DNA of 21,883 nt from a virus. The stretch covers positions 1 through 21,883 of IMG/VR virus record IMGVR_UViG_3300027970_000159; one strand, 5' to 3'. The stretch's first letter is position 1; each line of letters starts with the position of its first letter. Below the pieces are notes generated by a model, which was given only the letters and a program-made list of their open reading frames with translations, had not been told where the DNA came from and ran no database searches. The position numbers were made by a program, and so were the translations under genes. This document shows, one piece after another, positions 2,568 to 21,782 of the stretch.

Positions 2568-2580
2568 GGAGGATCCCGAA

Positions 2581-2757
2581 ATGGCCAAGCAGTCTGAACC
2601 AGAAACCATCGATCCGAACGCGAGTTACCGCGTCGAGCTTGCCCGTCCGGTCCGGGTTGCAGGGATCGCCATGCACCCTAACGATCCCGACGTCACTGTC
2701 TCGGGCGCGGTGCTGGAGACCATCCTGCAGGCGGTTGCGTCTTACGTGAAGGTCTGA
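2581..2757 (+). CDS. Small phage protein, 58 residues, unknown function
   Basis: This short frame encodes MAKQSEPETIDPNASYRVEL at its start and ends in TILQAVASYVKV before TGA. A textbook GAGGAGG lies about nine bases upstream. It sits tightly between two fibre-like genes, 13 bp after one and 4 bp before the next, so co-translation is likely. There is no signal peptide or membrane segment. The sequence 'YRVELARPVRVAGIAMHPND' resembles short proteins that accompany phage fibre or baseplate genes, where the N-terminal half forms strands and the C-terminus a helix. A linker or assembly factor is possible but is not shown by the sequence. Confidence 0.65.
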   Translation: MAKQSEPETIDPNASYRVELARPVRVAGIAMHPNDPDVTVSGAVLETILQAVASYVKV

Positions 2758-2761
2758 CCTG

Positions 2762-3958
2762 ATGCGGCGCTTTGATCGCTACCGCGTGGCCGATGATGAC
2801 GAGGTCCAGGCCGGCTACTTCAACGGCGTCCATGAAGACCTCGACCTTCGTCTTCACGCGGTCGAAGAAAAGGCCGTGGGCTGGGAGGAAGAAGTCACGC
2901 GCTTTGAGGATGTAGCGCTTGGCCGTATAGACGCCGCACTTCTGCCAATCCTGCAACAGGCAATCGTGATCCGTGACCGGATCGAGACGGCGGCGCATCT
3001 GGGAACACTGCTGTCGGCCCAGTCCAATAGTCAGGTGGTAACCGGAGCCGGGATCAAGACCTTCCTCGTCCGGGAGAGCGATCGGCTGCGTTTTGCGCCT
3101 GCAGGCTTTCTGGTGGTCGTGAGTGAAGCCCAACCCGCAAACTGGCTTGGCGGCCGTCTGAACGATTATGATCCCGACAGCGGCGTGCTCTCGATCCTCG
3201 TGACTGCAACCGGTGGGAGTGGCGTTCATTCGGATTGGTTCATTACCGCAACGACCGACCCTGTGCTTGCGACGTCGATCCTTGAGGCAGCACAAGGGCT
3301 GTCGGCATCGGTCGTAGCCGCTGCCCAAGGCGCGCAGCAGGCGGCAACCAGTCAGCAGACGGCTGCTGTTCAGGCGGCCAGTGCTGCCAATTCAGCGAAC
3401 TTAGCGGCGACATCCAAGACGCAGGCCAATACTTCGGCCATTGCCGCGGCGGGAAGTGCCGAGACAGCCTCAAGCGCTGCGACGTCGGCGGCAACGATGC
3501 TTGCGGGGCTTGGAAGCAAATATGCCGGAGCATCAGCTACGGCTCCTTCTGTGGATGCACTTGGCAAGCCTTTGACGGCCGGGGTCCTGTGGTTCGATAC
3601 CGCTCAGAACCTGATGAAGGTCTATACGGGTGCGGTGTGGATCGTTGCGGCCTCAAGCGTGTTCCGGTCATCCTCGACGGAGACGTTTACAGCGAGCGCC
3701 AGCCAGACGAGCTTTGCCGTGACCGGCGGCTACGACGTTGGCCGCCTCACCGTCTATCGCAACGGGCTTCGCCTCATTGCAGGTTCAGGCTTCACGGCCA
3801 CCAATGGGCTGAGCCTAACACTCGGCAGTCCAGCGGTTGCGGGCGATGTGATCGAGATTGAGAAGTCGATCTTCATCCTCTCCGATGTCTGGTCAAAGTC
3901 TGAGGCTGATGCCCGCTTCCTGATGTCGAGCTCGCCGCTTGATGGCGGCGCCTACTGA
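2762..3958 (+). CDS. Phage tail fibre-like protein with Ala-rich coiled coil
   Basis: A 398-residue modular fibre. Residues 1-75 are helical and charged. Residues about 85-165 form a beta domain common in tail fibres. Residues about 170-250 are an Ala/Ser/Gln/Thr-rich low-complexity stretch typical of phage fibre shafts. Residues about 270-300 carry a 'GVLWFDTAQNLMKVYTGAVW' element that recurs in phage receptor-binding proteins, and 300-375 form another beta domain. The C-terminus is LDGGAY, nearly the same as the ends of the proteins at 15403 and 15645. The start at 2762 lies four bases after the previous stop with only a weak AAGG, which suggests translational coupling. The likely role is host attachment; the receptor is unknown. 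Confidence 0.75.
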   Translation: MRRFDRYRVADDDEVQAGYFNGVHEDLDLRLHAVEEKAVGWEEEVTRFEDVALGRIDAALLPILQQAIVIRDRIETAAHLGTLLSAQSNSQVVTGAGIKTFLVRESDRLRFAPAGFLVVVSEAQPANWLGGRLNDYDPDSGVLSILVTATGGSGVHSDWFITATTDPVLATSILEAAQGLSASVVAAAQGAQQAATSQQTAAVQAASAANSANLAATSKTQANTSAIAAAGSAETASSAATSAATMLAGLGSKYAGASATAPSVDALGKPLTAGVLWFDTAQNLMKVYTGAVWIVAASSVFRSSSTETFTASASQTSFAVTGGYDVGRLTVYRNGLRLIAGSGFTATNGLSLTLGSPAVAGDVIEIEKSIFILSDVWSKSEADARFLMSSSPLDGGAY

Positions 3959-3980
3959 TCAATTCTTCTTCGGAGGCATC

Positions 3981-6953: not shown

Positions 6954-7002
6954 GTGACTGCGGCCCCTAAGCCGCCACATCAAAACCCCTTCGCTCCAAC
7001 CA

Positions 7003-7025
7003 CCCCGCCTTCGCGCGGGGTTTTT
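7003..7025 (+). terminator. Rho-independent terminator after the fibre block
   Basis: The inverted repeat CCCCGC (7003-7008) / GCGGGG (7015-7020), with a six-base loop, is followed directly by five T. It lies between the adhesin stop (6953) and the sheath start (7046), so it separates the fibre transcript from the tail-structure transcript. The upstream octamer AAAACCCC (6982-6989) is perfectly complementary to the 3' arm plus T-run (7017-7024), so a competing structure is possible. Confidence 0.8.
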
Positions 7026-7045
7026 CATTTTGAGGAGAACCGCTG

Positions 7046-8293
7046 ATGAGCGACCCAACCTTTGGCATTTCGATCACGCGGATCGACAACGAGCCGCGTC
7101 CCGCCGTCTGGTCCGACATGTCGGTCGTGGGCCTGATCGGAACGGCGCCCGGTGCAGATCCCGCGCTGTTTCCGGCCAATACGCCGGTGTTCCTCTATTC
7201 GGATGACATCGCAAAGCGCACTGCACTTGGGACCACCGGCACCATGCCCGCCGCACTGTCGCTGATCAATGCGCAGCTAGGCGAGTTTCAGGTGGCGGCC
7301 AAGGTGGTGGTTGTCCGGGTGGCCGAGGGCGGCACGGTGGACGAGACGATCGCCAATATCGTCGGCGACGGAATCTCCACCGGGCTCGAGGGCTTCATTC
7401 AGGCGGGCCCCATCCTGGGCGTGATCCCGCGGCTTCTCTGCGCGCCCGGCTTCACGAGCCAGCGGACAGGCTCGAATGCCAATGCGGTCTGCGCCGCACT
7501 TCCTTCGATCTGCAACAGGCTTCTCGCCCATGCGGTCGTCGACGGCCCTGCAACCACAGAACAGGCGGCCATCGACTGGCGCGAAACCCTGTCCTCAACG
7601 CGGTTGATCCCGGTCGATCCTGCCGTGCGCATCATGGCCGGAACGGACGTCACGGTCGTACCGCTGTCGCCCGCCGTCATCGGCATCGGCGTGCGGCGTG
7701 ATCACGAAAAGCAGGGTCGCCCGTTCCACTCCTGGGCCAATCAACCGGTACAGGGGATCGTCGGTCCTTCGCGGCCTATCAACTTCTCACTCACCGATGG
7801 CGCAACGGAAGGCCAGCGGCTTTTGTCGCACAATCTCGGCGTGCTCTTGCGCGGTGAAATGGGCGTCGAGACAGCGATTGCCTCTGGTGGCTTCGTCTTC
7901 GTCGGCACCGACAATGCAGGCGAGGATGATCTCTGGCGGTTCTACAACGTCACGCGCGGGCGCGATTACATCCACCTGATGTTCCTGCGCACGCTGCGTT
8001 TTTATCTCGGCCGTTTCAACATCACCGGACAAACTGTGCAGGCCGTCCTCAACACAATCGGCTTTGCGCTGCGTGACTTAAAGGCCGACGGCGATATCCT
8101 GGGCTATGAGGTGAAGTTCACGCGCGATCAAAACTCGCCGGAAGAACTGCGCCAAGGCCGCTTCACGGTGAACTTCGCGGCCGAGGAAGCCCCCGTGCTG
8201 CGTTACCTCGGCATCCAGTCCGCCCGCTACCGTCCCGCACTCGATGCGCTGCTCGACGATCTGCTCGCTCAGGTCGGCGCCATCACCGGCTAA
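7046..8293 (+). CDS. FI: Contractile tail sheath protein (P2 gpFI-like)
   Basis: A 415-residue sheath protein, close in size to P2 FI (about 396). The N-terminus (ITRIDNEPRP, then VVGLIGTAPGAD) is the typical beginning of phage and pyocin sheaths. The middle carries the domain with 'PRLLCAPGF' near 126-134 and the 'RFYNVTRGRDYIHLMFLRTL' segment near 305-324. The C-terminal part ends with the FTVNFAAEEAPVLRYLGIQ region that forms the conserved sheath-sheath handshake. It surrounds the tube and contracts to drive it through the host envelope. The start is supported by TGAGGAGAA about ten bases upstream. It is the first gene of the P2-order block and lies just after a terminator, so it needs its own late promoter or read-through. 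No promoter was evident to me. Confidence 0.93.
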   Translation: MSDPTFGISITRIDNEPRPAVWSDMSVVGLIGTAPGADPALFPANTPVFLYSDDIAKRTALGTTGTMPAALSLINAQLGEFQVAAKVVVVRVAEGGTVDETIANIVGDGISTGLEGFIQAGPILGVIPRLLCAPGFTSQRTGSNANAVCAALPSICNRLLAHAVVDGPATTEQAAIDWRETLSSTRLIPVDPAVRIMAGTDVTVVPLSPAVIGIGVRRDHEKQGRPFHSWANQPVQGIVGPSRPINFSLTDGATEGQRLLSHNLGVLLRGEMGVETAIASGGFVFVGTDNAGEDDLWRFYNVTRGRDYIHLMFLRTLRFYLGRFNITGQTVQAVLNTIGFALRDLKADGDILGYEVKFTRDQNSPEELRQGRFTVNFAAEEAPVLRYLGIQSARYRPALDALLDDLLAQVGAITG

Positions 8294-8308
8294 TCAAGGA
8301 GAACAGCC

Positions 8309-8845
8309 ATGAGCACGATTTACGTAATGGAAGCCGGAAACCTGTTTTGCGGCGATCATGATCCGTCCGCCTCAAAACACCTTACTCTCAACGAGTTGCA
8401 GCTGCCCACGCTGCAGGAAATCTACCAGGATCACCATGCGGGGGGGTCGCGCGTGCAGATCGAAGTGGCGGTCGGCATCCAGAAGCTCGAGCCCACCTTC
8501 AAGCTCGCAGGCTGGGATCCCGACCTCCTAAGCCGGTTTGGGCTTGGCACGCGGGACGCCAAGGTCTTCACCGCCTACGGCGTCATCCGCGACAAGCGCA
8601 CTGGCGTAGCGCATGAAGCCAAAGCCGTCATCGAAGGCCGCCTCGGCAAGATTGAGCCCGAAGCCTTCAAGCGCGGCGAGATGATGGGCCACGATTACGC
8701 CATCAACGAGGTCATGCACTATGAGCTCTGGTTTGGCGAAAAGGAGAAGCTCTTTTGGGACTTCTTCTCCAGCGACTGGCGCCTTGATGGCGCGTCGCAG
8801 ATCGATGACGAGCGCCGCATCCTGCGCATTCCCACCACCGGCTGA
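8309..8845 (+). CDS. FII: Major tail tube protein (P2 gpFII-like)
   Basis: A 178-residue tail tube protein, near the size of P2 FII (about 172). Recognisable features are the N-terminal MEAGNLFCGD, the 'LNELQLPTLQEIYQDHHAGG' helix/strand that follows, the 'FGLGTRDAKVFTAYGVIRD' strand pair and the C-terminal 'YAINEVMHYELWFG' segment. It polymerises as hexameric rings inside the sheath to make the DNA conduit. An AAGGAGA ribosome site lies 15 bp after the sheath stop. Its partner is the sheath gene immediately upstream, and tube assembly depends on the chaperones and tape measure that follow. Confidence 0.93.
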   Translation: MSTIYVMEAGNLFCGDHDPSASKHLTLNELQLPTLQEIYQDHHAGGSRVQIEVAVGIQKLEPTFKLAGWDPDLLSRFGLGTRDAKVFTAYGVIRDKRTGVAHEAKAVIEGRLGKIEPEAFKRGEMMGHDYAINEVMHYELWFGEKEKLFWDFFSSDWRLDGASQIDDERRILRIPTTG

Positions 8846-8856
8846 GGAGATCCATC

Positions 8857-9144
8857 ATGACAACCCCCATCACCATTGCCTTGACCGAGCCTGTGACCTT
8901 CGAGGGCTACACCATTACCGAGCTGCAGATCCGCAGGCCCAAGGTGCGTGACCTCCGCGCCATGGAACAAGCGACTGCCGACAAACCGACCCAGCTCGAT
9001 CAGGGCGCAGCCATGGTGGCGCTCCTGTCGGGCATTCCAGAAGCGGCCATCGAGGAACTGGACGCCGGGGACTTCACCCGCGCCTCCGAGGTGATCGCCG
9101 GTTTTTTCGCGAAGGCCGCGCCGCCGGAAACTGGCGCAGCGTAA
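8857..9144 (+). CDS. E: Tail assembly chaperone, short form (gpE-like)
   Basis: A 95-residue product of the type annotated as phage tail assembly chaperone (Mu gp41 / P2 gpE class). It has a short beta-rich N-terminus ('ITIALTEPVTFEGYTITELQIRRPKVRD') and a helical C-terminal half. It lies between the tube and tape measure genes, where nearly all long-tailed phages encode this factor. It probably coats the tape measure and recruits tube subunits. The gene contains T TTT TTC at 9102-9108 in the right phase for a -1 slip, so this frame is the major, unshifted product. An ATG with GAGGAG about ten bases upstream supports the start. Confidence 0.88.
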   Translation: MTTPITIALTEPVTFEGYTITELQIRRPKVRDLRAMEQATADKPTQLDQGAAMVALLSGIPEAAIEELDAGDFTRASEVIAGFFAKAAPPETGAA

Positions 9145-9263
9145 TCGCCGACATTGCCCATGTGCTCGCAACGCCCATCACGGCCTTTGAGGACATGGAC
9201 TGGCACGAGGCGCTGCTCTGGCATGAGGAGGCGCGGCGGCTTTCAGGGTCTGTGGGGGGCTGA
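8857..9263 (+). CDS. Tail assembly chaperone, -1 frameshift fusion (E+E'-like)
   Basis: A ribosome slipping back one base at 9102-9108 leaves the E frame after codon 84 and continues to TGA at 9261-9263, giving about 135 residues. The shifted tail includes WRSVIADIAHVL and DMDWHEALLWHEEARRL, which fits the small gpE/GpE-like family of P2 phages. The -1 frame has no good start of its own: the only in-frame ATG, at 9195, falls inside the conserved part and lacks a ribosome site. P2 makes E+E' and lambda makes G/GT in the same way. The long form is expected at a few percent to tens of percent and links tube subunits to the tape measure. The ratio cannot be read from sequence. Confidence 0.85.
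9102..9108 (+). promoter_or_regulatory. -1 ribosomal frameshift slippery site
   Basis: TTTTTTC fits the X XXY YYZ heptamer in the zero frame (T at 9102, codons TTT 9103-9105 and TTC 9106-9108). It is the only such heptamer I noticed in this tail block. It sits 36 bases before the zero-frame stop, which is normal for tail chaperone frameshifts. I did not identify a definite downstream stem-loop or pseudoknot. Confidence 0.85.
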
Positions 9264-9265
9264 CG

Positions 9266-11659
9266 ATGGCAAATCTGACCACCCAGCTCATCGTCGAACT
9301 TCTCGACAAGGTGACGGCACCCGCGCGGGGCGTGGCGCGGAGCCTCGCCGGGATCACGCGGAGTATCGATGACGCCAATGGCCGAAGGATCGGCTTTGGT
9401 GATCGCCTGGACGCCGCCATCACGCGCAACAACCGCGCGCTTGGCGATGCGCGTTCCGGGCTCGTCGATGCGGTTGCGGGCTTTTACGCGCTGAAAACGG
9501 CGATTGCGGCACCCGTCGAAGAGGCCATGAAGTTCGAAAGCGCCATGGCCGATGTGAAAAAGGTGGTCGACTTTCCAACACCGCAGGCCTTCAAGGATTT
9601 CCAGGCGGCGTTGATGGCGCTGTCACGTGACATTCCGCTCAGCGTCAATGGCCTCGCGGAGATTGCTGCGGCCGCAGGTCAGGCGGGCATTGCGGGCGCG
9701 GACCTAGTGCGCTTCACACAGGCCGCAGCAAAGATCGGCGTGGCGTTTGATATTTCGGCAGACGAAGCCGGATCCGCCATGGCGAAGATGATGACGGGCC
9801 TTGGTCTTACGATCGATGAGACCGTGCGGCTTTCCGACGCCATGAACCATCTCTCGAATGCGCAAGCCTCGTCGGCTGCCGAAATTCTCGACGTGGTGCG
9901 CCGGGTCGGCGCGCAGGCCAAGATGTTCGGGTTTACGGCAGAGCAGACGGCGGCCTTTGCCTCGGCGATGATTTCGGCAGGGGCAGAGAGCGAGGTCGCC
10001 GCAACCTCGTTTCGCAATATGGGGCTGGCCCTCACGCATGGGACAGCCGCCACAAAGGGCCAGCGCGAGGCGTTCAAGGCGCTGGGGCTTGATGCCGTCT
10101 CTGTGGCAAAGCGCATGCAGGAAGATGCTGTCGCCACCACGGTCGATGTGCTTGAGCGGCTGTCGCAGCTTCCAAAGGAGCAGCAGGCCGCAATTGCCAG
10201 CAATCTCTTTGGCAATGAAGCGCGCGCCTTGGGACCGCTTCTCACCAACCTCGATCTGGTCCGCTCGTCTCTCGGGCTGATCGCCAATGAGGCCAACTAT
10301 GCTGGGTCCGCCTTCAAGGAGTTCGAGAACCGCAATCGGACCTTTGGCAGCGAGTTGCAGCGTTTCAACAATCTACTCACAAATCTCAAGATCACCATTG
10401 GCAACGCCATTATTCCGGTGCTCTCGAACCTGATCGTCACCATCACGCCGATCATCGACAAGGTCACAGCGCTCGCCGCCGCCTATCCGGGGCTTACGGG
10501 CGCCATCGTGTCGGCGACGGCTGCCGTCATTGCCTTCAAGGTGGCGCTTGCTGGCCTTCGCTTCATTGGCCTCATGGGCCGTGGCGGGGCGCTGAGCCTC
10601 CTGTCGCTGGGTTTCAACTCGATTGGCAAGGCGGCCATCGGTGCGCGCGCGGCGGCAACCGAGATGATTGCCCTGCAAACGGCACTCGGCGCCATGGGTG
10701 GTCAGTCGCTGGGAACATTGGGGACGATCGGAGCGGGTTTGCGCGGCATGGCGCTGGCAGTCCCGGGTGTGGCCGCCATCGGCTCAGCGCTCACGGCCGT
10801 GGGCGCAGCCCTTGCGGCAATCTCGGCACCCGTTTGGGGAACAATTGCGGCCATCGTTGCGGCCTTGGCGGCCGCCGGCTTCACCATCTGGAAATACTGG
10901 GACCGGATCTCTGCGGTGTTCGCCGGTGTCGCGAAACGATTGAGTGAGGAATTGGAACCCGCTTTGGAGCTGGCCCAGCCGCTCTTCGATGCGCTTGCCA
11001 CCGTGGGCGGTGCGATCTCATCTGCTTGGGCCGGGGCGGCCCAATGGATCGGCAGCTTTTTTTCCTCGCTCTCCGGCTGGTTCGGCCAGGAGACCTTGTC
11101 GGAAGAGCAAAAGGCCCAGTGGGAAAAATCTGGCTACGACATTGCCGACCGCATCATCACCGGCATCAAGTCGGTCACGGTACGCCTTGGCGAACTGGCT
11201 GGCGAGTTTTTCACCGCCGGTTATAATTTGATCAAGTCGCTCTGGGACGGCATGGTGCAGGTCTTTGCCGATCTTAAGTCTTGGATCGACAAGCAGATCG
11301 CAGGCATCCTCGCGCCCATCAACGATGCTGCCAGTGCCGTCAAAGGTTTCTTCAGCTTTGGCGGTGGTAGCGAGGCGGCGTCGCCACAGGGGCGCGCCTC
11401 GGGCGGGCCGATCAGTGCTGGCAGACCCTATCTTGTTGGCGAGCGGGGCCCAGAGCTGATCACGCCAAGCCGGTCGGGATATGTCCACCCAGCGGGCAGC
11501 ACGGGCGCGCCTTCGATTACGATCGGGCCTTTCAGTTTTAATAATACATCTGCGGCCGATGCCGCCGAGATCACCGCACAAGTGCGCGCCGTTTTGAAGC
11601 GCGAGGTCCGGGAGGTGTTCCGCGGTGTTTATGCCGATGCTGGATTGAGGTTTGCCTGA
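9266..11659 (+). CDS. T: Tail tape measure protein (P2 gpT-like)
   Basis: A 797-residue tape measure protein, close to P2 T (about 815), so the tail should be similar in length to P2's. The conserved core spans about 80-330, beginning at 'MKFESAMADVKKVVD' and running through the 'LAEIAAAAGQAGIAG' and 'LFGNEARAL' segments of the TIGR01760-type family. Long hydrophobic stretches at about 408-435 and 490-546 could insert in the inner membrane at DNA ejection. The C-terminus carries 'ASGGPISAGRPYLVGERGPE' (about 711-730), a signature of many tape measures. It starts two bases after the E' stop and overlaps the U start by one base (TGATG). No internal break was seen. Confidence 0.93.
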   Translation: MANLTTQLIVELLDKVTAPARGVARSLAGITRSIDDANGRRIGFGDRLDAAITRNNRALGDARSGLVDAVAGFYALKTAIAAPVEEAMKFESAMADVKKVVDFPTPQAFKDFQAALMALSRDIPLSVNGLAEIAAAAGQAGIAGADLVRFTQAAAKIGVAFDISADEAGSAMAKMMTGLGLTIDETVRLSDAMNHLSNAQASSAAEILDVVRRVGAQAKMFGFTAEQTAAFASAMISAGAESEVAATSFRNMGLALTHGTAATKGQREAFKALGLDAVSVAKRMQEDAVATTVDVLERLSQLPKEQQAAIASNLFGNEARALGPLLTNLDLVRSSLGLIANEANYAGSAFKEFENRNRTFGSELQRFNNLLTNLKITIGNAIIPVLSNLIVTITPIIDKVTALAAAYPGLTGAIVSATAAVIAFKVALAGLRFIGLMGRGGALSLLSLGFNSIGKAAIGARAAATEMIALQTALGAMGGQSLGTLGTIGAGLRGMALAVPGVAAIGSALTAVGAALAAISAPVWGTIAAIVAALAAAGFTIWKYWDRISAVFAGVAKRLSEELEPALELAQPLFDALATVGGAISSAWAGAAQWIGSFFSSLSGWFGQETLSEEQKAQWEKSGYDIADRIITGIKSVTVRLGELAGEFFTAGYNLIKSLWDGMVQVFADLKSWIDKQIAGILAPINDAASAVKGFFSFGGGSEAASPQGRASGGPISAGRPYLVGERGPELITPSRSGYVHPAGSTGAPSITIGPFSFNNTSAADAAEITAQVRAVLKREVREVFRGVYADAGLRFA

Positions 11660-12081
11660 TGCTGATGGTTCTGGGACCTGTCCAATTCGAAGTCTGGCCG
11701 TTCAACGCCACCGATTACGAGCATGGCCACGAGGCGTCCTTTGCTGAAAAGCCGGTTCTGGGCACCCGTCCGCCGCTCGAATGGGTGGGCGAAGGACCCG
11801 AGACATGGACCATCAAGGCCCGGATCTTTCCGCGCCGCTTCGGCGGGCTCGAGGATTTAAAGAAACTGTCCCAGGCCCGGGCGTCGGGTCGTCCGCAATA
11901 CTTGATGCGCGGAGATGGCGCCCAGATGGGCTGGGTCGTCATCGAAAAGGTGCAGGAGCGTTCGTCCTATCTTGATGCCAAGGGTGTTGGCCAAGTGATC
12001 GAGGTCGACATTTCGGTAAAGCGCTCAGCCAAGCCCTCCAACGGATCCTTCTTCTCGCTATTGTCGGGGTTGTTTGCATGA
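11659..12081 (+). CDS. U: Tail completion protein (P2 gpU-like)
   Basis: A 140-residue protein with the features of the P2 gpU family: 'GPVQFEVWPFN' at the N-terminus, 'FAEKPVLGTRPPLEWVGEGP' in the middle of the first half, and 'RRFGGLEDLKKLSQARASGR' after it. It caps or terminates the tail tube at the head-proximal end, so tube growth stops and the head can join. The start overlaps the last base of the tape measure stop and the stop overlaps the next start (ATGA), so translation is coupled on both sides. It is a little shorter than P2 U (about 159). Confidence 0.9.
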   Translation: MLMVLGPVQFEVWPFNATDYEHGHEASFAEKPVLGTRPPLEWVGEGPETWTIKARIFPRRFGGLEDLKKLSQARASGRPQYLMRGDGAQMGWVVIEKVQERSSYLDAKGVGQVIEVDISVKRSAKPSNGSFFSLLSGLFA

Positions 12082-12305
12082 GCGAAGTAATCGAGCGCCT
12101 CACGGTTGAGGGCGACGGTATCACGGTGTCGCTTCTCGTCTGGCGGCGGTTCCGGCGCCCGATGCCGGGCCTCGTCGAGATGATCTTCGAGCGCAACCCG
12201 GGGCTGGCTGGCTTGGGTCCCATCCTCCCCGTCGGCACGGTACTTGAAATCCCTGTACCGACACCGCGCGCCCCGCAACTCCTCGATCCCATCCGGCTGT
12301 GGTGA
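12078..12305 (+). CDS. X: Tail protein X (P2 gpX-like, LysM-like fold)
   Basis: A 75-residue protein matching P2 gpX (about 67). It has a short beta-alpha-alpha-beta pattern in which 'MPGLVEMIFERNPGLAGLG' gives the helices and 'LPVGTVLEIPVP' the last strand, as in LysM-like folds. In P2-like phages X lies between U and D and is needed for tail completion, probably by holding the tube to the baseplate hub. ATGA overlap with U indicates coupling. Gene D follows 6 bp later. Confidence 0.9.
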   Translation: MSEVIERLTVEGDGITVSLLVWRRFRRPMPGLVEMIFERNPGLAGLGPILPVGTVLEIPVPTPRAPQLLDPIRLW

Positions 12306-12311
12306 CGCATT

Positions 12312-13319
12312 ATGGCAAAACGCGCACAGTTCATGGTGATGGTGGCGGGCACCAACATCACGAGCGTGCTCGCGCCCGTCCTGATTTCGCTCACCGTGTA
12401 GGACAAGGTCGGCACCCATTCCGACACGGCCAACCTCGAAATCGACGACACCGAGGGCCGGATCGTTCTGCCGCAACTGGGCGCAGCTGTCGTCGTGGCG
12501 CTCGGCTGGGAAAGCGAAGGCATGCGGCCTGTCTTCACCGGCACCGTGGATGAGGTCAGATCCTCCGGCTCGCGCAGCGGACGCGTCCTGAACATCACGG
12601 CGAAGGGCGTCGACACCACGGCAAAGCCGAAGGAGCCGCAACAGCGGCATTTCGACGACACATCCGTTGAAGACATCCTTCGCGAGACCGGCAAGACGGC
12701 GGGTATCACCACGATCGAGGTTGATCCGGACTTGGCCGGCATCAAGCGCGCCTATTTCGAGATGCGCGATGAGAGCTTCATCCACGCCGGAGAACGGCTT
12801 GCGCGCGAGATCGGTGGCAACTTCCGGATCCAAGGGAAGACGGCTTACCTCTCAAAGCGCGGCGGCACTTATGCCGCTGCCGTGATCGCCGCCTGGGGCC
12901 AGAACCTTCACGGCTGGGACATTGCACCCGCCTTGGCGCGGGCACAGTTCGGCGCCGTCCGCGCGCGCTGGTACGACCCGAGAGAGGCCCAGTGGCGGGA
13001 CACGGAAGAACAGACATCCCTCAATGTCACTGCGCGGCATGATCACCGCTATGCCAAGGCGGATGAGGGCGAAGCTACCCAGCAGACAGGCTCTGACAAG
13101 GCGACCTCGGAGCGCGATGCCGGCGAAGGCACGGTGACGATTGAGGGCGACACCAGCGCCATTCCCGACGGGCTTTGCATGATCGTTGGCGCCCGCCCGG
13201 GCGTAGACGGCGCTTACCGCATCGAGACCGTCACCCACAATTATTCGCGTGGAGGCGGCTTTGTCACCACGCTCGATCTCAAGGCGCCCCAGCAGGGTGC
13301 CGGAACGGACACACGATAG
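12312..13319 (+). pseudogene. D: Late control/hub protein D (P2 gpD-like), interrupted by in-frame TAG
   Basis: The frame from ATG 12312 to TAG 13317-13319 would encode about 335 residues of a gpD-family protein: 'QFMVMVAGTNITSVLAPVLI' near the start, 'SDTANLEIDD' after it, 'GRVLNITAKGVDT' and 'YRIETVTHNYSRGGGF' at the end. Codon 30 is TAG (12399-12401), between LTV and DKVGTHSDT, with the same frame open on both sides, so this is a point nonsense change rather than a frameshift. D belongs to the hub/spike-associated tail proteins, and truncation at residue 29 should destroy it. An internal GTG at 12495 would restart too late, after the first conserved block. Translation could be rescued by amber suppression. 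A sequencing error cannot be excluded. Confidence 0.8.
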
Positions 13320-13331
13320 GGAGGGCAGCCC

Positions 13332-13646
13332 ATGGCGCCAGACTGGACCGGGGGGCTCCCCACGGTGATTTACTTCATTCTCGGCGTCGGCGGCGTCGCC
13401 GGCGCGCTGCTTGCCATGGTCAAGCTCTGGGAGACGATTGTTCCCGATCGCGGCCAGCATATGGTCAAGGATATCGCCATCATCAAATCCGACATCCAGG
13501 ACATCCGCACCCGCGTCGGCATGCTGGAACTTGATGTCGCCAAGATTGACCAACCCTCGATCGCCAAGCGCTTCGATACGCTCGAGGGCAAGATCGACAA
13601 GCTCTACGATTTTTTGCTTGAGCGACTGACCAAGCTGCCGTCCTGA
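13332..13646 (+). CDS. Small membrane protein, holin-like
   Basis: A 104-residue protein with one strong transmembrane segment at about 8-31 (TVIYFILGVGGVAGALLAMV) followed by a charged, helical, coiled-coil-prone tail (about 45-100) with heptad-like leucines and isoleucines. A GGGAGGG ribosome site lies 12 bases after the D stop. Its position immediately before the endolysin makes a holin or antiholin role likely, although the single N-terminal membrane segment with a long soluble tail is not a classical class I or II holin. XhlA-type proteins have the opposite order (coil then membrane segment). The function is inferred from context only. Confidence 0.6.
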   Translation: MAPDWTGGLPTVIYFILGVGGVAGALLAMVKLWETIVPDRGQHMVKDIAIIKSDIQDIRTRVGMLELDVAKIDQPSIAKRFDTLEGKIDKLYDFLLERLTKLPS

Positions 13647-13733
13647 CGGTCGGCGGCAAACCCAACCCCCCAAATCCGAAACTGAACTGACGCTGGCGGC
13701 CACGGGCCTCCGGCCAAAGGAGGCTATTGTCCG

Positions 13734-14669
13734 ATGACACCCATTCTCTTTGCGAAAAGCTATCTCGGCACCACGGAATTCGAAGGTTCCGCCGACAACC
13801 CCAAGATCATGGAAATGTACAAAAGCGTCGGCCATGACTGGGTGGAGCATGACGAGGTTGCCTGGTGCGCCGCCTTCGTCGGCCACTGCCTTGAAAAGGC
13901 GGGTCTGCGCTCGAGCCGCAAGCTCAACGCCCAATCCTATCTCACCTGGGGTGAGAAGGTGGCCGGGGTCGAACAGGCGCGCGAGGGCGACATCATCGTC
14001 TTCACCCGCGGTTCCTCATCCTGGCAGGGGCACGTTGCGTTTTTCCTGAAGGCAGCGGGCAACCAGGTCGAGGTGCTGGGGGGCAATCAGTCGAATGCGG
14101 TCACCGTCGCGCGCTATTCCAAAGCCCGCATCCTTGGAATCCGTCGGCCGATTGCCCTTAATGCCGCGCTGCGGCCGGAGATCAAGGTCGTCCAGCAACA
14201 CCTCAAGGAGCTCGGCTATCACGAGGTCGGCAATGTCGATGGCCGGTTCGGCGCCCGCACGCGCGCGGCTGTCCTCGCCTTCCGGGCCGACAATGGCCTG
14301 CCGCTTAATCCTGATGTCGACACCGTGTTCGTCGAGGCGCTGCAGACGGCAAAGCCGCGGGCTGTGTCTGCCGAGCGGGCGACGGGGCAGCCGGAAGGCT
14401 CGCGCATCATCAAGGCAGCAAACGGGCAGATCGCGACGGGCATTGCCGGTATGGCAGGGGTTGCGGCGTCCGTCGTGGCGCCAGCCGTCGAGACGGCCGA
14501 GCGCGCAAAGGACATGACCGAGCGCACTGTCGGGCTTTTGAACCTCGGTGATTGGCTGATGCCGGTATTGCCCTGGGCTGGAGCTGCAATCTTCCTGATG
14601 GTCATTCTTCTGGCGTGGAAGGCGAAGGCCGCTCGGATCGAAGACTACCGCACGGGGAGGACACCGTGA
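13734..14669 (+). CDS. Endolysin: CHAP/TIGR02594-like amidase with PG-binding domain and C-terminal membrane segment
   Basis: A 311-residue endolysin. The N-terminal domain (about 1-140) has the TIGR02594/CHAP-like catalytic pattern: Cys45 in AWCAAFVGHCLEKAG, His100 in WQGHVAFF and Asn118 in GGNQSN. Residues about 147-200 form a PG_binding_1-like module (EIKVVQQHLKELGY, VDGRFGARTRAAVLAF). A linker follows, and residues about 277-296 are a hydrophobic helix (MPVLPWAGAAIFLMVILLAW), so the protein may be tail-anchored in the inner membrane. An AAAGGAGG site ten bases upstream supports the start. It cleaves peptidoglycan at the end of the lytic cycle and sits between a holin-like gene and the spanins. 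The stop overlaps the next start. Confidence 0.88.
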   Translation: MTPILFAKSYLGTTEFEGSADNPKIMEMYKSVGHDWVEHDEVAWCAAFVGHCLEKAGLRSSRKLNAQSYLTWGEKVAGVEQAREGDIIVFTRGSSSWQGHVAFFLKAAGNQVEVLGGNQSNAVTVARYSKARILGIRRPIALNAALRPEIKVVQQHLKELGYHEVGNVDGRFGARTRAAVLAFRADNGLPLNPDVDTVFVEALQTAKPRAVSAERATGQPEGSRIIKAANGQIATGIAGMAGVAASVVAPAVETAERAKDMTERTVGLLNLGDWLMPVLPWAGAAIFLMVILLAWKAKAARIEDYRTGRTP

Positions 14670-14926
14670 TGGGTGGCCTCCTTTTGTCCATGCTGTCCGG
14701 TGTGTGGTCCCGCCTGTCGGGCTGGGCGGCGCTTACAGCCGCCCTCATCGCCGCACTCGGCATCGCCTGGCTCCGGGGACGGGCCGCAGGCCAAGCGGCT
14801 TGGCAGGAAAAACGTCAGGCCAACCGCGACAAAGCCATCCGTAAGTCAGGAGAGATCAGACATGACGTTCAAAACGATAGCGATGCTGGTCTTGATCGCC
14901 GCCTCGACCGCTGGATGCGCGACTGA
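14669..14926 (+). CDS. Rz: Inner-membrane spanin subunit, Rz-like
   Basis: An 85-residue protein starting at the ATG that overlaps the endolysin stop (a GTG one codon upstream is an alternative start). It has an N-terminal transmembrane segment at about 17-36, then a charged helical stretch ending in RRLDRWMRD. This is the layout of i-spanins, which sit in the inner membrane and reach across the periplasm. It is short for the family. The strongest support is that an outer-membrane lipoprotein gene begins inside its 3' end in another frame, the standard Rz/Rz1 arrangement. Proteins ending in LDRWMRD are common after phage endolysins. Confidence 0.7.
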   Translation: MGGLLLSMLSGVWSRLSGWAALTAALIAALGIAWLRGRAAGQAAWQEKRQANRDKAIRKSGEIRHDVQNDSDAGLDRRLDRWMRD

Positions 14927-15062
14927 TCCACGATTGCAAAGCGATTGCGACTGGGCGCAGCCGATCAAGCCGTCACGGCAGGATGTGTTGACCCGCCAGA
15001 CCAAGGAGCAGATCGCCTCCCACAATGACATCGGCGCAAAACTTTGCGGGTGGCGGCCATGA
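14862..15062 (+). CDS. Rz1: Outer-membrane spanin lipoprotein, Rz1-like
   Basis: A 66-residue lipoprotein. The signal peptide (MTFKTIAMLVLIAASTAGC) has Lys at position 4, a hydrophobic core and a lipobox at ASTAGC, so Cys19 would be lipidated. The mature part includes 'CDWAQPIKPSRQD' and ends in 'HNDIGAKLCGWRP', close to a widespread phage Rz1-like family (CDW...P.. and HN..G..LCGW). Two further cysteines (residues 31 and 63) could form a disulphide. The start lies inside the preceding gene in another frame with CAGGAGA upstream, and the stop shares ATGA with the next gene. It is expected to fuse inner and outer membranes with Rz. Confidence 0.78.
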   Translation: MTFKTIAMLVLIAASTAGCATDPRLQSDCDWAQPIKPSRQDVLTRQTKEQIASHNDIGAKLCGWRP

Positions 15063-15406
15063 CAACGTCCGTCGTCGATGGCCCCGCCATCATCATCGGC
15101 TATGAATATCGATTGCAAATCGAGGCCGAGAGCGACCTGTTCCTAGCTCAGGCAAGTTTTGCGGGGCAGCTGCGCGTCAAGGTGAGTGCCACAACGCCGG
15201 TGACGACGCTGACCACCGAGAATGGCGGTGTCACGCGGTTGACGGACAGGATCTTGGAACTCGTAGTGTCCGCCGCCGCAACGGCTGGCCTCTCGCCTGG
15301 CAGCGCTGTGCTGGATCTGGTGCGCACCGATCTCACGCCGCCCAGGCATCTCGCCTTCATGCTGGAAATTCCCGTCGTGCAGCCCGTGACACGGGGGCTT
15401 GGATGA
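15059..15406 (+). CDS. Hypothetical phage protein, 115 residues, fibre-cassette member
   Basis: Starts at an ATG that overlaps the Rz1 stop (ATGA) and ends at another ATGA overlap with the collagen-like gene. This puts it in a coupled three-gene cassette that runs into a fibre protein. The 115-residue sequence is beta-rich and compositionally like a beta-sandwich: 'IIIGYEYRLQIEAES', 'FAGQLRVKVS', 'TDRILELVVSAAAT' and 'LAFMLEIPVVQPVTRG'. It has no signal peptide or membrane helix. A small tail or fibre accessory beta-sandwich is a reasonable guess from its shape and neighbours. I do not recognise the family with certainty. Confidence 0.7.
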   Translation: MTTSVVDGPAIIIGYEYRLQIEAESDLFLAQASFAGQLRVKVSATTPVTTLTTENGGVTRLTDRILELVVSAAATAGLSPGSAVLDLVRTDLTPPRHLAFMLEIPVVQPVTRGLG

Positions 15407-15624
15407 CAGGGGCAGTTTCTTGCCGGCCCATCACAGGTCCGATCCGCCTCAAAACCCAATCCGACGTTCCGATTATGGCGCGCGTTCTCGCGAGCCCTGT
15501 TTCGGTCCGTGTTCTCGGAACCCCTGGGCCAACGGGGGAGCAGGGGCAAACGGGACCCGCAGGCCCGCAAGGCCCACCCGGCAATCTCGATACCGGCATC
15601 GTCCTTGATGGCGGCAACTTCTGA
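15403..15624 (+). CDS. Collagen-like phage mini-protein
   Basis: A 73-residue protein. Residues about 1-38 are strand-rich. From about 39 to 61 there are seven Gly-X-Y triplets (GTPGPTGEQGQTGPAGPQG, then GPPG), which would form a short collagen triple helix of the sort that trimerises phage tail fibres. It ends in IVLDGGNF, matching the C-terminal signature of two other fibre proteins in this window. ATGA overlap with the gene before it implies coupling; the next gene begins 20 bp later. It probably acts as a trimeric linker or shaft piece. It is unusually small for a stand-alone fibre protein. Confidence 0.75.
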   Translation: MTGAVSCRPITGPIRLKTQSDVPIMARVLASPVSVRVLGTPGPTGEQGQTGPAGPQGPPGNLDTGIVLDGGNF

Positions 15625-15644
15625 AAACAAGGAAACTCTGATCC

Positions 15645-16628
15645 ATGGCAAACGTCATTCGCATCAAGCGCCGCGTCTCCGGTGTAGCCGGGGCGCCCTC
15701 AGCGCTCAAATCCGCTGAGCTCGCCCACAATGAGGTCGACGATACGCTCTATGTCGGCAAGGGCGACGACGGGTCCGGCAATGCGACCTCTGTCATCGCA
15801 CTTGCAGGACGTGGAGCCTTTGTCGATCTGTCCAATGCCCAGGCGGTAGCAGGCGCCAAGACCTTCTCGACCGTGCCCAAGGCGTCCCAGGACGCTTCCG
15901 GCGGCACCGACCTCGTGCGGAAGAGCCAGCTCGATACGCTCCTCGGTGCGAAGGCTCCGCTGGCCTCGCCTGCACTGACGGGCACGCCCACAGCACCCAC
16001 GCCAACTGGCGCAACAAATACAACGCAGATTGCGACGACGGCCTTCGTGCAGACGGCGCTCGCAGGCCTCGGCGCTGGCGACATGCTGAAATCCGTCTAC
16101 GACACCACGAACAACGGCAAAGTGGACCTCGCGGAACTGGCCGAGGCAGTGGCCTGGACGGGCGTCACGGGTAAGCCTTCGAGCTTCACGCCTGCGGCCC
16201 ACACCCACGCAACTTCTGAGGTCACCGGCCTCGACACGGCTCTTGCCGCGAAGGCGCCTCTCGCCTCACCGGCCCTGACCGGCACCCCAACGGCGCCGAC
16301 TGCAGTAACTGGAACCAGTTCCACCCAGCTAGCCACGACGGCGTTCGTATCCGCAGCCGTGGCGGCCGTCATCAATGGATCGCCCGGCGCGCTCGACACG
16401 TTGAACGAACTTGCCGCCGCCCTCGGCAATGACGCGAACTTCTCCGCCACCGTCACAAATGCGCTGGCGGGGAAGCTCGCCAAGGCGTCGAACCTGTCTG
16501 ATCTCGCAGATGCAGCGGCTGCCCGGACAAACCTAGGTCTCGGAACTATGGCCGTTCAGAATGCAAGCGCCGTGGCCATCACGGGCGGTAGCGTCGATGG
16601 TGTCACGCTGGATGGCGGGACGTTCTAG
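15645..16628 (+). CDS. Phage tail fibre/receptor-binding protein with Mtd-like N-terminus
   Basis: A 327-residue protein whose start MANVIRIKRR parallels MANTIRLKRS of the adhesin at 3981, and whose ELAHNEVDDTLYVGK matches the Mtd N-terminal domain style. Two copies of a shaft repeat (APLASPALTGTPTAPT, then ATTAFV) cover about 101-135 and 201-235. An AHTHATSEVTGL element, HxH type, lies at about 185-196. A tail-fibre-type helical repeat (LNELAAALGNDANFSATV) is at about 253-270. The C-terminus is GGSVDGVTLDGGTF. An AAGGAAA lies about 14 bases before the ATG. It is the last gene on this strand and ends with TAG, 20 bp from a convergent gene. It is likely a second receptor-binding protein. Confidence 0.82.
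   Translation: MANVIRIKRRVSGVAGAPSALKSAELAHNEVDDTLYVGKGDDGSGNATSVIALAGRGAFVDLSNAQAVAGAKTFSTVPKASQDASGGTDLVRKSQLDTLLGAKAPLASPALTGTPTAPTPTGATNTTQIATTAFVQTALAGLGAGDMLKSVYDTTNNGKVDLAELAEAVAWTGVTGKPSSFTPAAHTHATSEVTGLDTALAAKAPLASPALTGTPTAPTAVTGTSSTQLATTAFVSAAVAAVINGSPGALDTLNELAAALGNDANFSATVTNALAGKLAKASNLSDLADAAAARTNLGLGTMAVQNASAVAITGGSVDGVTLDGGTF
15945..16349 (+). repeat. Two-copy shaft repeat within the second Mtd-like fibre gene
   Basis: The protein stretch beginning GAKAPLASPALTGTPTAPT at about 15945-16049 is repeated, beginning AAKAPLASPALTGTPTAPT, at about 16242-16349, each copy running into TT(or ST)Q-ATTAFV. The DNA copies differ at many third positions while the protein is conserved, so this is an old, selected repeat and not a recent duplication. 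Confidence 0.8.
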
Positions 16629-16648: not shown

Positions 16649-17590
16649 TCAAGTTGTTGTCTGCTGGGGACCTTCCTGGCCCGCTTCCCAATCGGCATAG
16701 GTATGTCCATCCGGCAGTTTCCACAGGATGCGCCCGTTCGCACTGGCGCCAATAACCGCGGAAGCGGCGGAAGAAGCCGAAGAAAAACTACAGTTGCTCG
16801 TGAACACCAGAAAGTCGCCATCACGGCGGAGCACGCCCTTTTCCAGCAATGTCTCCCGTAATGCTACAGTCCCTCGGGGCACGGTTGGCGTTGTCCGGGC
16901 TCTTGCTTTTGATCCTTCGGTCACAATGAACTCCCCGGACGAACCCACCATCATTTTCGCCGCGTATCCCTCACCAATAAATAAGAAAAGCGCAGGCACG
17001 TCAGCGGGCACCTTAGTGACCTCGGTTGGAAGGCCCGATGCCTCTGGCGCACGCCCCTTCATCTCGCGGAACAGATCCCAGCCCAGAGCGCCGACCAGCG
17101 TCTTCGTTTGGTCGACAAACTCGTCCATGTCTACGCGATCCTGAAGGGGCAACTTTCCTGCGTCATCAGACGGTCGTTTGGCATTCGGGATGGACCACCG
17201 GATACTCCGACCAATATTTCGAATGAGAGATGATTCCACGTAGCGAGCGTGGCTCTTCGTCAGGTTCTCATCCTTGCTGATCAGCACGACGGTATCTGTC
17301 CAAAAGCCCTTTGCGTCCCGGCCCGCCTCATTCGAATTATGATGGGAAAGTCGCGCGCCGATGCCCTCTGACTCACCGATGTAGGCGAGTTGTCGATCTT
17401 GGTGGTCATCGTCGGCACCTATCAAGATATAGACACCAGGTCGTTCAATTTCCGGAAAAGTTTCACGCACGCGCCGTAACTGATTGCGTCGAAATGCGAT
17501 CGCCTGAATCGTGGACATCGAAATCTGCGCCACGCGTATCCCGCTTGGGTCTCCATCGAGCAGGAAAATGTTGATCGAGCGGGGTTTCAA
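16649..17590 (-). CDS. GIY-YIG nuclease family protein with C-terminal DUF4357
   Basis: A 313-residue protein. Residues about 50-140 form a GIY-YIG domain: GVYILIG (52-58), AYIGES (69-74), Arg80, HH at 83-84, Glu119 in YVESSLI (the usual metal-binding Glu) and Asn137. The C-terminus (about 243-302) has the DUF4357 pattern: [19 protein letters not shown], then [21 protein letters not shown] and DGHTY. The start is a TTG whose last bases overlap the res stop (TTGA), so it should be translationally coupled to the restriction subunit; the next in-frame Met is residue 25. The N-terminal '[16 protein letters not shown]' is normal for this family, which supports the TTG start. It could be an accessory nuclease of the restriction system; its actual target is unknown. 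Confidence 0.83.
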
Positions 17591-20500
17591 CTTGCCCTAC
17601 CAATCGAAGCCGATCGACTGAGGCCGACAACCTCCATCAGTTTTCCGTAATTAGTGACGACATCGTAGCGGACCGGGTCGGTGGACACGCGCTGACCGAT
17701 TTCGTCGAAAAACTTCCGCGCGCAGGCGATCTTGGTGCTTTCGATCTCGCGCAGTTTCAGGGACGACATTGTCCCCTTGGTTTCGGCCACGAAATAGATG
17801 TGCTTGACGCTGCCCACCTTGAACGAAATCGCCCAGTCCGGGTTGTAGTCACCGACAGGGGTCGGGATCAGGAACCCGCGCGGGAGCTTTGCATAGACGA
17901 TGACCTCGTCGCTCGTATCGAGCTCCTCCACGAACCGCCGTTCGATGTCCGAGTCCGTGACGACATAGTCGTAAACATGGTTTTTCAGTTTAGAGCTGAC
18001 CTTGGAGAAGTCCTGCCCTGACTGGTTGGCCGTGAATATGTCGATGTCATATCGGTCCTCGACGCCGTCATAGGTCAGGCGCTCGATGACCATCGTGGCC
18101 TTCTGCTCGGAGATGATCCTGGAAGCCTCGGCAATGAAGTGTTCGGGGTTCTGGCGGAACTGAGCGAAGACGCTTAGCGCCATCCCGGTCAGGATCTGCG
18201 CAACTGTATGGCGGGTCAGATGAGCGTTTTCAGCGACCTTGCCCAGCAGGTCGTACTTCACCTGCGAATAGACGGACCCGCCGCTCTCGGTGGTCGTATT
18301 GGTGACCTTGAAGCCGTCGCCTGCCTTAAGCTGATCATCCGTGAGGTCGTCGCTCTGAATGCCGGTTTGGACGGTGTACTGCAGCGGTGTGACCCGGAGC
18401 TGGCTATCGAGCGCGCCCACGCATTTTCGAATGAGCTCGTCGGAATCAAACTCCACCCGATAGACGGCTTTGCGGTTGATTCGACCCCAGAGCTCGTGGA
18501 ATTCCTTCTTGTCGAAGTTGGCGTTCAGAGGATTGGTCTTCGGCTTCCGGCCGTCTTCAACCTTCGGCAATTGGGCGTCGCTGAACACGCTGTCGATCAG
18601 CTGGAAGACCTGATCGGCAAAGGGCTTCAAATCGTCCGGAAGCGCCGCGAGCGTTCCTGCGGTCTTGGCTTCGTGGTAGCCGGCCGCAATCTGGTCAGCG
18701 TCATCGGTGTAGTCGTTCTTCACCAGATACCGGTAGATCAGCTTGGCCAGGGCCGGGGTGATCTGGACCGGACCATTTTCATTCGTGACCGTCTTGCCGG
18801 TGAAGTAGGCCTCTGTGGCCTTCCTCGGGCGCGAGGACAGGGTATCGGCAATCTCCTTTTGGAGGCCCCCGACAAAGTCCTTGTAGCTCTCGCTGGCCAC
18901 CACAGTCAGGATGTTGATGTCATGGACCACCGCAGGGTGGTCCATGCGATCGCCATTCTGGTTTACCGACAGGCGAAGCCCGCGGCCGACTTCCTGCCGC
19001 CGCGAGATCATGTTCTCGCTGTGCTTCAGCATGCACATCACAAAGACGTTTGGATTGTCCCACCCTTCGCGGAGCGCGGAGTGGGAAAAGATGAACCGGG
19101 TCGCCTCGGCGAAGGACAGCAGACGCTCCTTGTCCTTCAGGATCAGGTCATAGGCATCCGTGTCGTCGGAATCGACGGACTTCGCCCCTACGTCAGGATT
19201 CTTCAGCCTGTTGGTCTTCTTGTCGATCGAGAAGTAGCCGTTGTGGGTCTTGGCGGCGTCGATGCCGGCCAGGTGCTTGCGATAGGCCTCGTTGTCGACC
19301 GCCAGCTCCGACAGGTATTCTGCTTTCAGGAGCTCATATTCCTCCTCGAAAACGCGGGCATACTCGCCCTTTTCGTCCGCCTGATCGTAGTCGCGGTACT
19401 TGGCGACCTCGTCGATGAAGAACAGGGACAGCACCTTGATCCCTTGGGAAAAGAGCTGCTTTTCCTTTTCGCAATGCGCCTTGATCGTCTCCCGGATCTG
19501 GATGCGACGGATATCCCGCTCAGACACGTCACCAGTGGCCTCGCCGGCCGACAGGATCACACCGTTGGTGAATTCGACAGTGTCGTTGTTGTAGTCGATC
19601 TGAGAGATGGTGAAGCCCCGGTACTGATCGAGGTCACCGGACAGCGTGAACAGGTCCTCGCGGAATTCCAGCCGGCGGACCTGACGCTTGATCTCGCCGG
19701 TCTTGAACTTGACCTCTAGCTCGATGCGGGCGACCGGCGCCTTCTTCGAGATGTCGATCCCTTCGAGATAGAGGTAGGCATTGGTGCCAGCCAGGCCGCG
19801 GGTCTGGATGCCGCGCACGGAGATCTTCTTCACCAGCTTCTGGTTATAGGCGTCCAGCGCGTCCAGACGATGAACCCGGTTGTGCTGGGTCTTATGGGTT
19901 GCTGAATAGCGCAGGATCATCAGCGGCTTGAACTTCGGCAGGGACTCCGTCGTCGCCTTGCCCTCCATCTTCTGCGGCTCGTCCAGGATCACGATCGGCC
20001 GGTTGCTGGCGATCACATCGATGGGCCGCCGAGACTGGAAGTCGTCCAGTTCGTCGTAGATCCGGAGGTTGTCAGCACCCCTGGCGGCGAACGCCTGGAT
20101 GTTGATGACCATGACGTTGATGCCGGCGTCAGACGAAAAACTCTCCAGCTCGTGCAGGCGCTTTGAATTGTAGATGAAGAAGCGCGCCTTCTTACCGTAG
20201 CTTTCGGTGAAATGGTCCGCGGTGATCTGGAGGGACTTATAGACGCCCTCCCGGATCGCAATGCTCGGTACCATGATGATGAACTTCGACCAGCCATAGC
20301 GCTTGTTCATCTCGAACATGGTCTTGATGTAGCAATAGGTTTTACCGGTACCCGTTTCCATCTCGACGTCGAGGTTGAACTTGCACCCCGCACTGGCGAC
20401 AAGGCTGTCCGACATGGGCAGGTTCTGGCGACGCTGGACGTCCTTGATGTTGGCCAGGACCTTAGGCTCGGTAAGCTGAAGGTCGGCGTTCTTAAAGCCT

Positions 20501-20643
20501 TCCTCGAAGGCGCTGGCCTGCGCCTTGCGGCCAGGGTCGATCCGGTAAGTGATACCACCTGTTATCGGCTGCCCGTCAAAACAGTCGACGACTGCCTCCA
20601 CGGCGTCAGTCTGATAGGGCTGGACCTTGAATTTGAGCTTCAT
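17587..20643 (-). CDS. res: Type III restriction enzyme, Res subunit
   Basis: A 1018-residue Res protein of normal family length. Helicase motifs in order: Walker A ETGTGKT (96-102), DEPQ box (221-224), SATH (247-250), [10 protein letters not shown] (525-534) and EVGRGLRL (551-558), as expected for superfamily 2. The C-terminal PD-(D/E)xK nuclease core is visible as YNPDWAI (Asp936) and FVAETKG (Glu954, Lys956). It hydrolyses ATP and cuts DNA in complex with Mod, whose DNA binding gives specificity. It starts 11 bp after the mod stop with an AAGGG in between and overlaps the following GIY-YIG gene. It looks intact, whereas its Mod partner is truncated. Confidence 0.93.
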
Positions 20644-20654
20644 GCCAAGGCCCT

Positions 20655-21782
20655 TCAGATCGACTTAATGTCGGTGTTGGGGGAAAGCTGGCGGAAGATC
20701 TGCTCCACGTTGATCTTGACGGCGTCCGACACAAAACCGTTGTCGCGGAAAACCATGCGGAGCGGCATGTGGCCGGCCAGCTCTTTGACCAGTTCTTCAG
20801 TCACGCCGGTGTCGAAACATGCGGCCAGAGCATTGTCGTCTACGAAGAACACTGTCTTGCCATGGATCACCTCGCGGCGAATGGGCAGTGCCAGATCAGC
20901 ACCCCAATCGATCAGCGTCTGAAAAAGGAGGTCCTCATGAGACCTATCTTGTTTGATGTTGTCTACGTGCGACAGCAAATCACCTTGGTTCAGAGAATCC
21001 GGCGAATAGTAGGTGTCGCGCATATTTGAGGTCGAGAGTTTGAATGCACGAAATCCGTCGTCGAATTTTCCAGTTGTGTTTTTCTGCAATTCCCGCGCCG
21101 ATAACTTCAATCTGCATTTAGTTATTTCTGCAATATTTGGCGCTAACGAATTGTCTAAAAGATATTTAAGTGCGGCCTCATTGTCCTTATCTTCTTTTGA
21201 TATTTGTTCGTCCAACTGAACCAAAATGAACTTTCTGTTCGCGCCCTTTTCGGCATTGAGCTCCATAACAGCATGGCCTGTGGTTCCGCTGCCAGCAAAA
21301 AAATCAAGTACAATTCCACTGCCAGTATGATCCGCCAGTTCAATGAACCTCTTTATAAGGTCTACTGGCTTCGGGTTTGAAAACACGCTGGCACCGCCAA
21401 ACAATTTTTTGACAGATGCAGTTCCATTAGTCGTCGTTCCGACGTCATCCCACCAGGTCTTAGATACTTTTCCGCGGTCTTCCGCTTCACTTAAAAACCG
21501 TTTTCTCTGCGGCCCAGCTTCGCCCGACGATCCAAATACAATTCTACCGTCAGACATAAGCTTTGTGAAATTTCCGAGATCATTTTTCCAGCTTGCACCT
21601 GGATTGGGCTTATACTCCTCGCCCGTTATAGGGTTGGTGATCGTGTACTGTTGATTGGGGCGCCAGCCGCCGACCTGAAACGGGTCTGCCTTCCATGGTC
21701 CGCGCGGATCATTATCTGGATTTGAAAAGAGCCTGTCGCCCAATAGGCGCGGCTTGAAGGTCGCCGCGCTTCCGATCGCCAT
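20655..21782 (-). pseudogene. mod: Type III DNA methyltransferase Mod, 3' fragment (N-terminus missing)
   Basis: 375 residues remain of a family usually around 600. Visible are the conserved NPDNDPRGPWKADPF (21-35), TWWDDVGTT (109-117), motif X-like FSNPKPVDLIKRFIELA (134-150), the AdoMet-binding motif I DFFAGSGTTGHAV (160-172) and FILVQLDE (185-192). In beta-class Mod proteins the catalytic DPPY motif lies before this region and is absent. Upstream of the ATG the frame meets a TGA at 21810-21812, so the missing half is not simply hidden by start choice. The first ~17 residues (MAIGSAATFKPRLLGDR) do not look like Mod and may come from inserted DNA. Much of the body is AT-rich while both ends are GC-rich. 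Catalytic methylation is unlikely from this fragment alone. Confidence 0.82.

Follow-up and report, generated by a model that had tools for sequence, protein, structure and literature searches.

Why does a gene for a second putative nuclease lie at the end of a type III restriction operon in a phage genome, and does it belong to that operon? The window, that is, the whole stretch of DNA that was analysed, is a virus/prophage record of 21,883 bases. Its phage late genes (tail fibres, sheath, tape measure, hub, endolysin and spanin, assigned with PHROGs) occupy positions 123..16628 on the plus strand and converge with a minus-strand block that consists of a GIY-YIG/DUF4357 gene (16649..17590, 313 aa, TTG start), a res gene (17587..20643, 1018 aa) and part of a mod gene (20655..21782, 375 aa). 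The gene adjoining the 3′ end of the GIY-YIG gene is a tail-fibre gene (15645..16628, plus strand; PHROGs), and fibre genes similar to those of the window flank the GIY-YIG gene in L142, L168 and L170. Among the late genes, two overlapping plus-strand ORFs in different frames (14552-14926 and 14673-15062), the second of which matches an Rz-like spanin family, look like a nested Rz/Rz1 pair. An earlier note on this DNA had placed the GIY-YIG ORF at 16649-17590 and had stated that its TTG start overlaps the res stop codon as TTGA. The coordinates bear out both points: the overlap lies at 17587..17590 on the minus strand, with the res stop codon TGA at 17587-17589 and the TTG start at 17588-17590. 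Relatives lend credence to this start, since residues 2-15 do not vary among them and several use ATG at the same codon.

What kind of protein does this gene encode? The earlier reading of the product as a GIY-YIG protein with DUF4357 agrees with Pfam, which matched GIY-YIG at residues 52-125 (E 4.5e-5, barely over the cut-off) and DUF4357 (PF14267) at residues 245-297 (E 2e-18; 66.4 bits against a gathering cut-off of 38.4). The protein also matches, over its full length (residues 1-304, E 1e-88), the PADLOC profile PDC-S14, a GIY-YIG plus DUF4357 candidate phage-defence singleton; no matching family was found in NCBIfam. The presence of the catalytic residues, which had been anticipated, was confirmed in an alignment of 32 sequences, in all of which Y54, Y70, G72, R80, H114 and E119 are invariant, with N136 nearly so; thus, the signature residues of the GIY-YIG superfamily (both tyrosines, the arginine, the glutamate and the asparagine) are all present in the window protein. 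The dN/dS ratio against close relatives is 0.03-0.06, which indicates strong purifying selection on the gene as a protein. Judged from its sequence, the product is probably a DNA-cutting nuclease. The single weak Pfam score for GIY-YIG might be taken to mean that the ORF is a chance neighbour or an annotation artefact without a role in defence, but the purifying selection, the invariant catalytic residues and a strong enrichment beside restriction-modification (RM) genes make this extremely unlikely. In two order-level alphaproteobacterial samples, 22 of 30 relatives lie near type I, type III or BREX genes, versus none of 20 control windows picked arbitrarily by hand from the same genome set (Fisher p about 1e-7); in a wider class sample, just 3 of 16 profile matches lie near RM genes, many of these 16 being without DUF4357.

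The restriction operon itself resembles the type III RM systems of the EcoP1I/EcoP15I type. The window's Res (ResIII and RE_endonuc domains) is full length, the REase_III profile matching positions 1-1005 of 1018, and an intact mod gene is present in L142, L158, L160 and L164. The resemblance has limits, in that the GIY-YIG gene falls outside the definition of such systems and the mod gene of the window is incomplete: it covers profile positions 270-621 of 621, and both the profile and an alignment to the four full-length relatives show that the N-terminal half, including the DPPY motif, is missing, while the final 100 bases of the window are unrelated to mod. Because its Mod lacks the catalytic N-terminal half, the type III system of the window is incomplete, and it has either decayed, been cut by the assembly or been misjoined at the record end. 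Elsewhere, the type III modules of L158, L160, L142 and L164 are extended by a DUF4391-like gene upstream of mod, which in L142 and L164 is also preceded by a large helicase. In L160, two mod-like genes lie ahead of one res, which possibly reflects specificity switching.

Is the GIY-YIG gene, as the earlier note held, fixed to a type III system? Were it a dedicated type III effector, the protein would be made in step with Res, recruited by the Mod-Res complex and used to cut translocated DNA. The overlap of 1 or 4 nt between the res stop and the GIY-YIG start in all six loci with this junction is in keeping with such a role, as is the operon order mod-GIY-res in L148, a distant member of the family. 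Three results make it highly unlikely, however. First, when type III res loci were inspected across the class, the GIY-YIG gene was found at none of 13, one of which encodes an 82%-identical Res, and an association specific to type III was rejected on this count. Second, members of the same clade follow at least five other systems, or none. Third, the window and L142 encode Res proteins that are 95% identical (dS 0.27), whereas the accompanying GIY-YIG proteins are only 58% identical. The class sample of 385 genomes contained 16 with strong PDC-S14-like matches and 15 with the res family of the window; the two coincided in a single genome, in which they lie on separate contigs. The claim of a fixed tie to type III is therefore refuted.

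With which systems, then, does the gene occur? We examined 22 members of the near clade (58-90% identity) and found that the gene is the last operon gene of at least six different defence systems. It follows type III res in six loci (the window, L004, L142, L158, L160 and L164, of which L158 and L160 are near-identical), type I hsdR with an SprT-like protease in L104, L141 and L161, and BREX-1 brxL in L103 (identical to L159) and L168. It also follows an operon of DUF499, DUF3780, DUF1156-methyltransferase and PLD-helicase genes in L003 and L162, MmeI with a helicase in L170, a methyltransferase with a ResIII/TnsA-like protein in L157, and an HNH protein in L163. Wherever the partner system has a methylase, this methylase is of an N6-adenine-type family. 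Distant relatives (30-38% identity) lie inside type I operons, in the orders hsdM-GIY-hsdS and hsdS-GIY-hsdR. The suggestion that the gene product is an accessory effector, or acts on modified DNA, thus survives in part: the conserved putative second nuclease is real and is plausibly a defence accessory, but its tie to type III is not upheld. In L157:9001, the gene apparently starts with CTG or else is 5′-truncated.

On the 3′ side of the GIY-YIG gene, the near clade mostly shows convergent phage late genes, which encode a GTA-TIM tail protein, tail fibres, endolysin or a head protein, although the viral collection favours phage contexts by design. Among the clean members from genomes, phage late genes lie downstream in four of six (L002, L003, L103 and L142). 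The type I group (L104, L141 and L161) apparently resides, as judged by eye, in serine-recombinase-like islands and not in prophages. We searched near the far ends of the loci for tRNA attachment sites and found none. On the other side of the variable cargo, host genes lie beyond the defence slot in L002, and inspection of L223 by eye revealed no phage gene or integrase over about 20 kb.

Three near-clade genes have no defence partner; that of L002 stands alone at a prophage end and those of L165 and L169 lie within tail modules, and the gene is kept under selection in this partnerless state, the L002 copy being under purifying selection. These copies could be explained if the protein were a superinfection-exclusion nuclease of prophages that acts alone, the modules being unrelated cargo that accumulated alongside it. 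We regard this as rather unlikely, because many relatives lie outside phages, on plasmids or chromosomes and within RM operons, and because the gene and its module are joined by tight start/stop overlaps.

How might so many systems have come to precede the same gene? In nine pairs of loci with the phage side and GIY-YIG gene in common but with different defence systems or none, nucleotide homology starts at −17 to +1 of the GIY-YIG start codon. Conversely, in pairs that share the defence system but differ in the phage (window/L004, L003/L162 and window/L158), homology spans the defence genes into the GIY-YIG gene and ends near the end of the latter. Between the window and L142, sliding identity drops at the GIY-YIG start. 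Recombination inside the gene in this pair was also considered, since a 90% blast match extends into codon 119, and was rejected, as the drop occurs already at the start codon. Well-supported branches of the GIY-YIG tree force no fewer than four changes of the label "type III", and these changes, together with the mismatch between Res and GIY-YIG identities, indicate that the type III module has moved between GIY-YIG backgrounds; the res module and the GIY-YIG gene have thus recombined with each other. The resulting picture, varied defence systems adjoining a conserved phage gene, is a feature of defence hotspots.

Does the protein itself drive this exchange? It could be the product of a homing-like docking gene and favour recombination at the 5′ edge of that gene, by which prophages swap modules. 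Homing enzymes occur among GIY-YIG nucleases, and both the position of the boundary, within 17 nt of the start codon in the nine pairs, and the repeated changes of the type III association would suit this role. Nevertheless, the pattern would also arise, with no active part played by the protein, wherever a conserved, selected ORF adjoins variable cargo, and recombination could use any phage-side homology; moreover, the distant relatives located mid-operon in type I systems show no such boundary, and no intron, intein or target site was noticed. We therefore consider an active role in exchange unlikely. Still bolder is the idea of a universal docking nuclease with a RAMA-like domain, which would serve any upstream adenine-methylating motor and would also drive module exchange by cutting the junction at the start codon; to this we attach only a slight probability.

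The predicted structure of the protein bears on what it might recognise. A model built from the 32-sequence alignment had a mean pLDDT of 82, versus 34 and no usable model for prediction from the single sequence. All structural matches of the protein lie under Z = 8, the safe limit of the comparison tool, and are read here with that limit. Residues 33-138 (17177..17494, minus strand), which hold the catalytic set Y54, Y70, R80, E119 and N136, are predicted to form a GIY-YIG nuclease fold, the best matches, below the safe Z of 8, being the GIY-YIG domain of UvrC (Z 6.7) and R.Eco29kI (Z 4.3); 9u75, a 5hmC-specific GIY-YIG enzyme, also matched (Z 3.8). The C-terminal domain that includes DUF4357 (residues 197-308; 16667..17002, minus strand) has a predicted RAMA-like fold. 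Its VIA matches, likewise below the safe Z of 8, were the MPND-DNA complex 7ydw (Z 6.6, 71 residues aligned) and the CcrM-DNA complex 6pbd (Z 5.6, 69 residues aligned), and the RAMA domains of MPND and CcrM were the sole entries in the structural list that cover residues 197-308 alone. By eye, DUF4357 and CcrM share a similar order of helix, LxxGxL, strands, SxSAA and NGxxxW; the alignment of their profiles with hhalign was not significant (P about 0.06). A Foldseek search of the model against the PDB gave no match at E under 0.001, and a sequence-profile search of solved structures gave none at E up to 1. The RAMA-like character of the C-terminal half is consequently suggestive only, a lead rather than a membership, and it lends some support to the proposed activity on modified DNA. 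The RAMA domain has been predicted to read 6mA, yet MPND bound DNA irrespective of 6mA, and the RAMA domain of CcrM touches the DNA backbone (PMC9963953). Because MPND bound DNA in this way, the RAMA-like end may be only a DNA-binding arm. The C-terminus of the PADLOC model PDLC02190 for DUF3780 (positions 265-354) matches the DUF4357 region of the window protein, so that this domain also occurs as a fusion to a second defence protein.

We propose, giving this explanation about an even chance of being right, that the protein is an autonomous, mobile, modification-reading nuclease whose expression is coupled to exchangeable adenine-methylating modules at prophage ends. A mobile GIY-YIG endonuclease would bind DNA through its RAMA-like DUF4357 end, with which it would probably sense the modification state. 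It would act alone against foreign DNA and, in most copies, would also end the operon of an adenine-methylating, ATP-dependent module. The partner, here the type III system, would restrict DNA without its mark, and the GIY-YIG protein would catch DNA that escapes this test, for example, foreign-modified DNA; together they might let the prophage shield its host from competing phages. A CcrM-like GANTC methylase gene is present in all eight carrier genomes examined, where cutting at 6mA without discrimination would be lethal to the carrier. For this reason, a general 6mA-triggered nuclease is unlikely, and cutting would have to depend on context, another modification or gating. A published observation runs counter to the proposal: in a panel of Pseudomonas aeruginosa strains, PDC-S14 was not in excess among phage-resistant strains, with susceptibility in 57% of its 14 carriers (PMC10855318).

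How does this proposal relate to known systems? BREX may be accompanied by BrxU, a type IV, modification-targeting nuclease that lies beside it and backs a methylation-based system. The role proposed here, a modification-targeting backup to such a system, is similar, but BrxU belongs to the GmrSD family, whereas the window protein is a GIY-YIG protein common to many system types. GIY-YIG-RAMA fusions have been noted by others and suggested to be 6mA-dependent type IV enzymes (PMC11037411); like the window protein, they combine a GIY-YIG nuclease with a possible reader of adenine methylation. The type IV enzymes Ahi29725I and Apa233I differ in that their reader is a winged helix (PMC11037411), in place of the predicted RAMA-like domain. 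Methyltransferase genes are seldom near such wH-GIY-YIG enzymes (PMC11037411), whereas the family studied here sits inside methylating systems. As to whether the protein would manage without a cognate methyltransferase, as a type IV enzyme does, the gene lacks a partner in L002, L165 and L169 but is usually in an operon with a methylating system.

PDC-S14 has been described in papers as restriction-like and overlapping GAO_29, and no function was found in the literature naming DUF4357 or PDC-S14. It is catalogued as stand-alone; exchangeable partners and a prophage slot are absent from the literature that we found. The PDC-S14 family, the GIY-YIG-RAMA architecture and prophage defence hotspots (PMC9122126) were already known separately. 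In the literature found, coverage of which was incomplete, no account was seen of many modules sharing a conserved nuclease as their final gene. That several unrelated methylation-based defence systems all end in one nuclease gene suggests a shared need, namely, the handling of DNA that escapes methylation-based discrimination. The protein also offers a means of testing a disputed point, the reading of adenine methylation by RAMA-type domains in bacterial restriction.

The prophage slot likewise resembles the hotspots of P2 prophages and P4 satellites, in which defence genes turn over beside a conserved prophage gene (PMC9122126). Those hotspots hold 1-5 kb between two conserved phage genes (PMC9122126), versus 5-12 kb of RM or BREX cargo here; in the present slot, the conserved neighbour is itself a putative nuclease, and only the boundary on its side is defined. 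The gene can serve as a marker for locating defence cargo in alphaproteobacterial prophages. Broken near-clade copies, namely, an hsdR-GIY fusion remnant, a half gene and a fragment (L107, L120 and L105), point to decay of the cassette.
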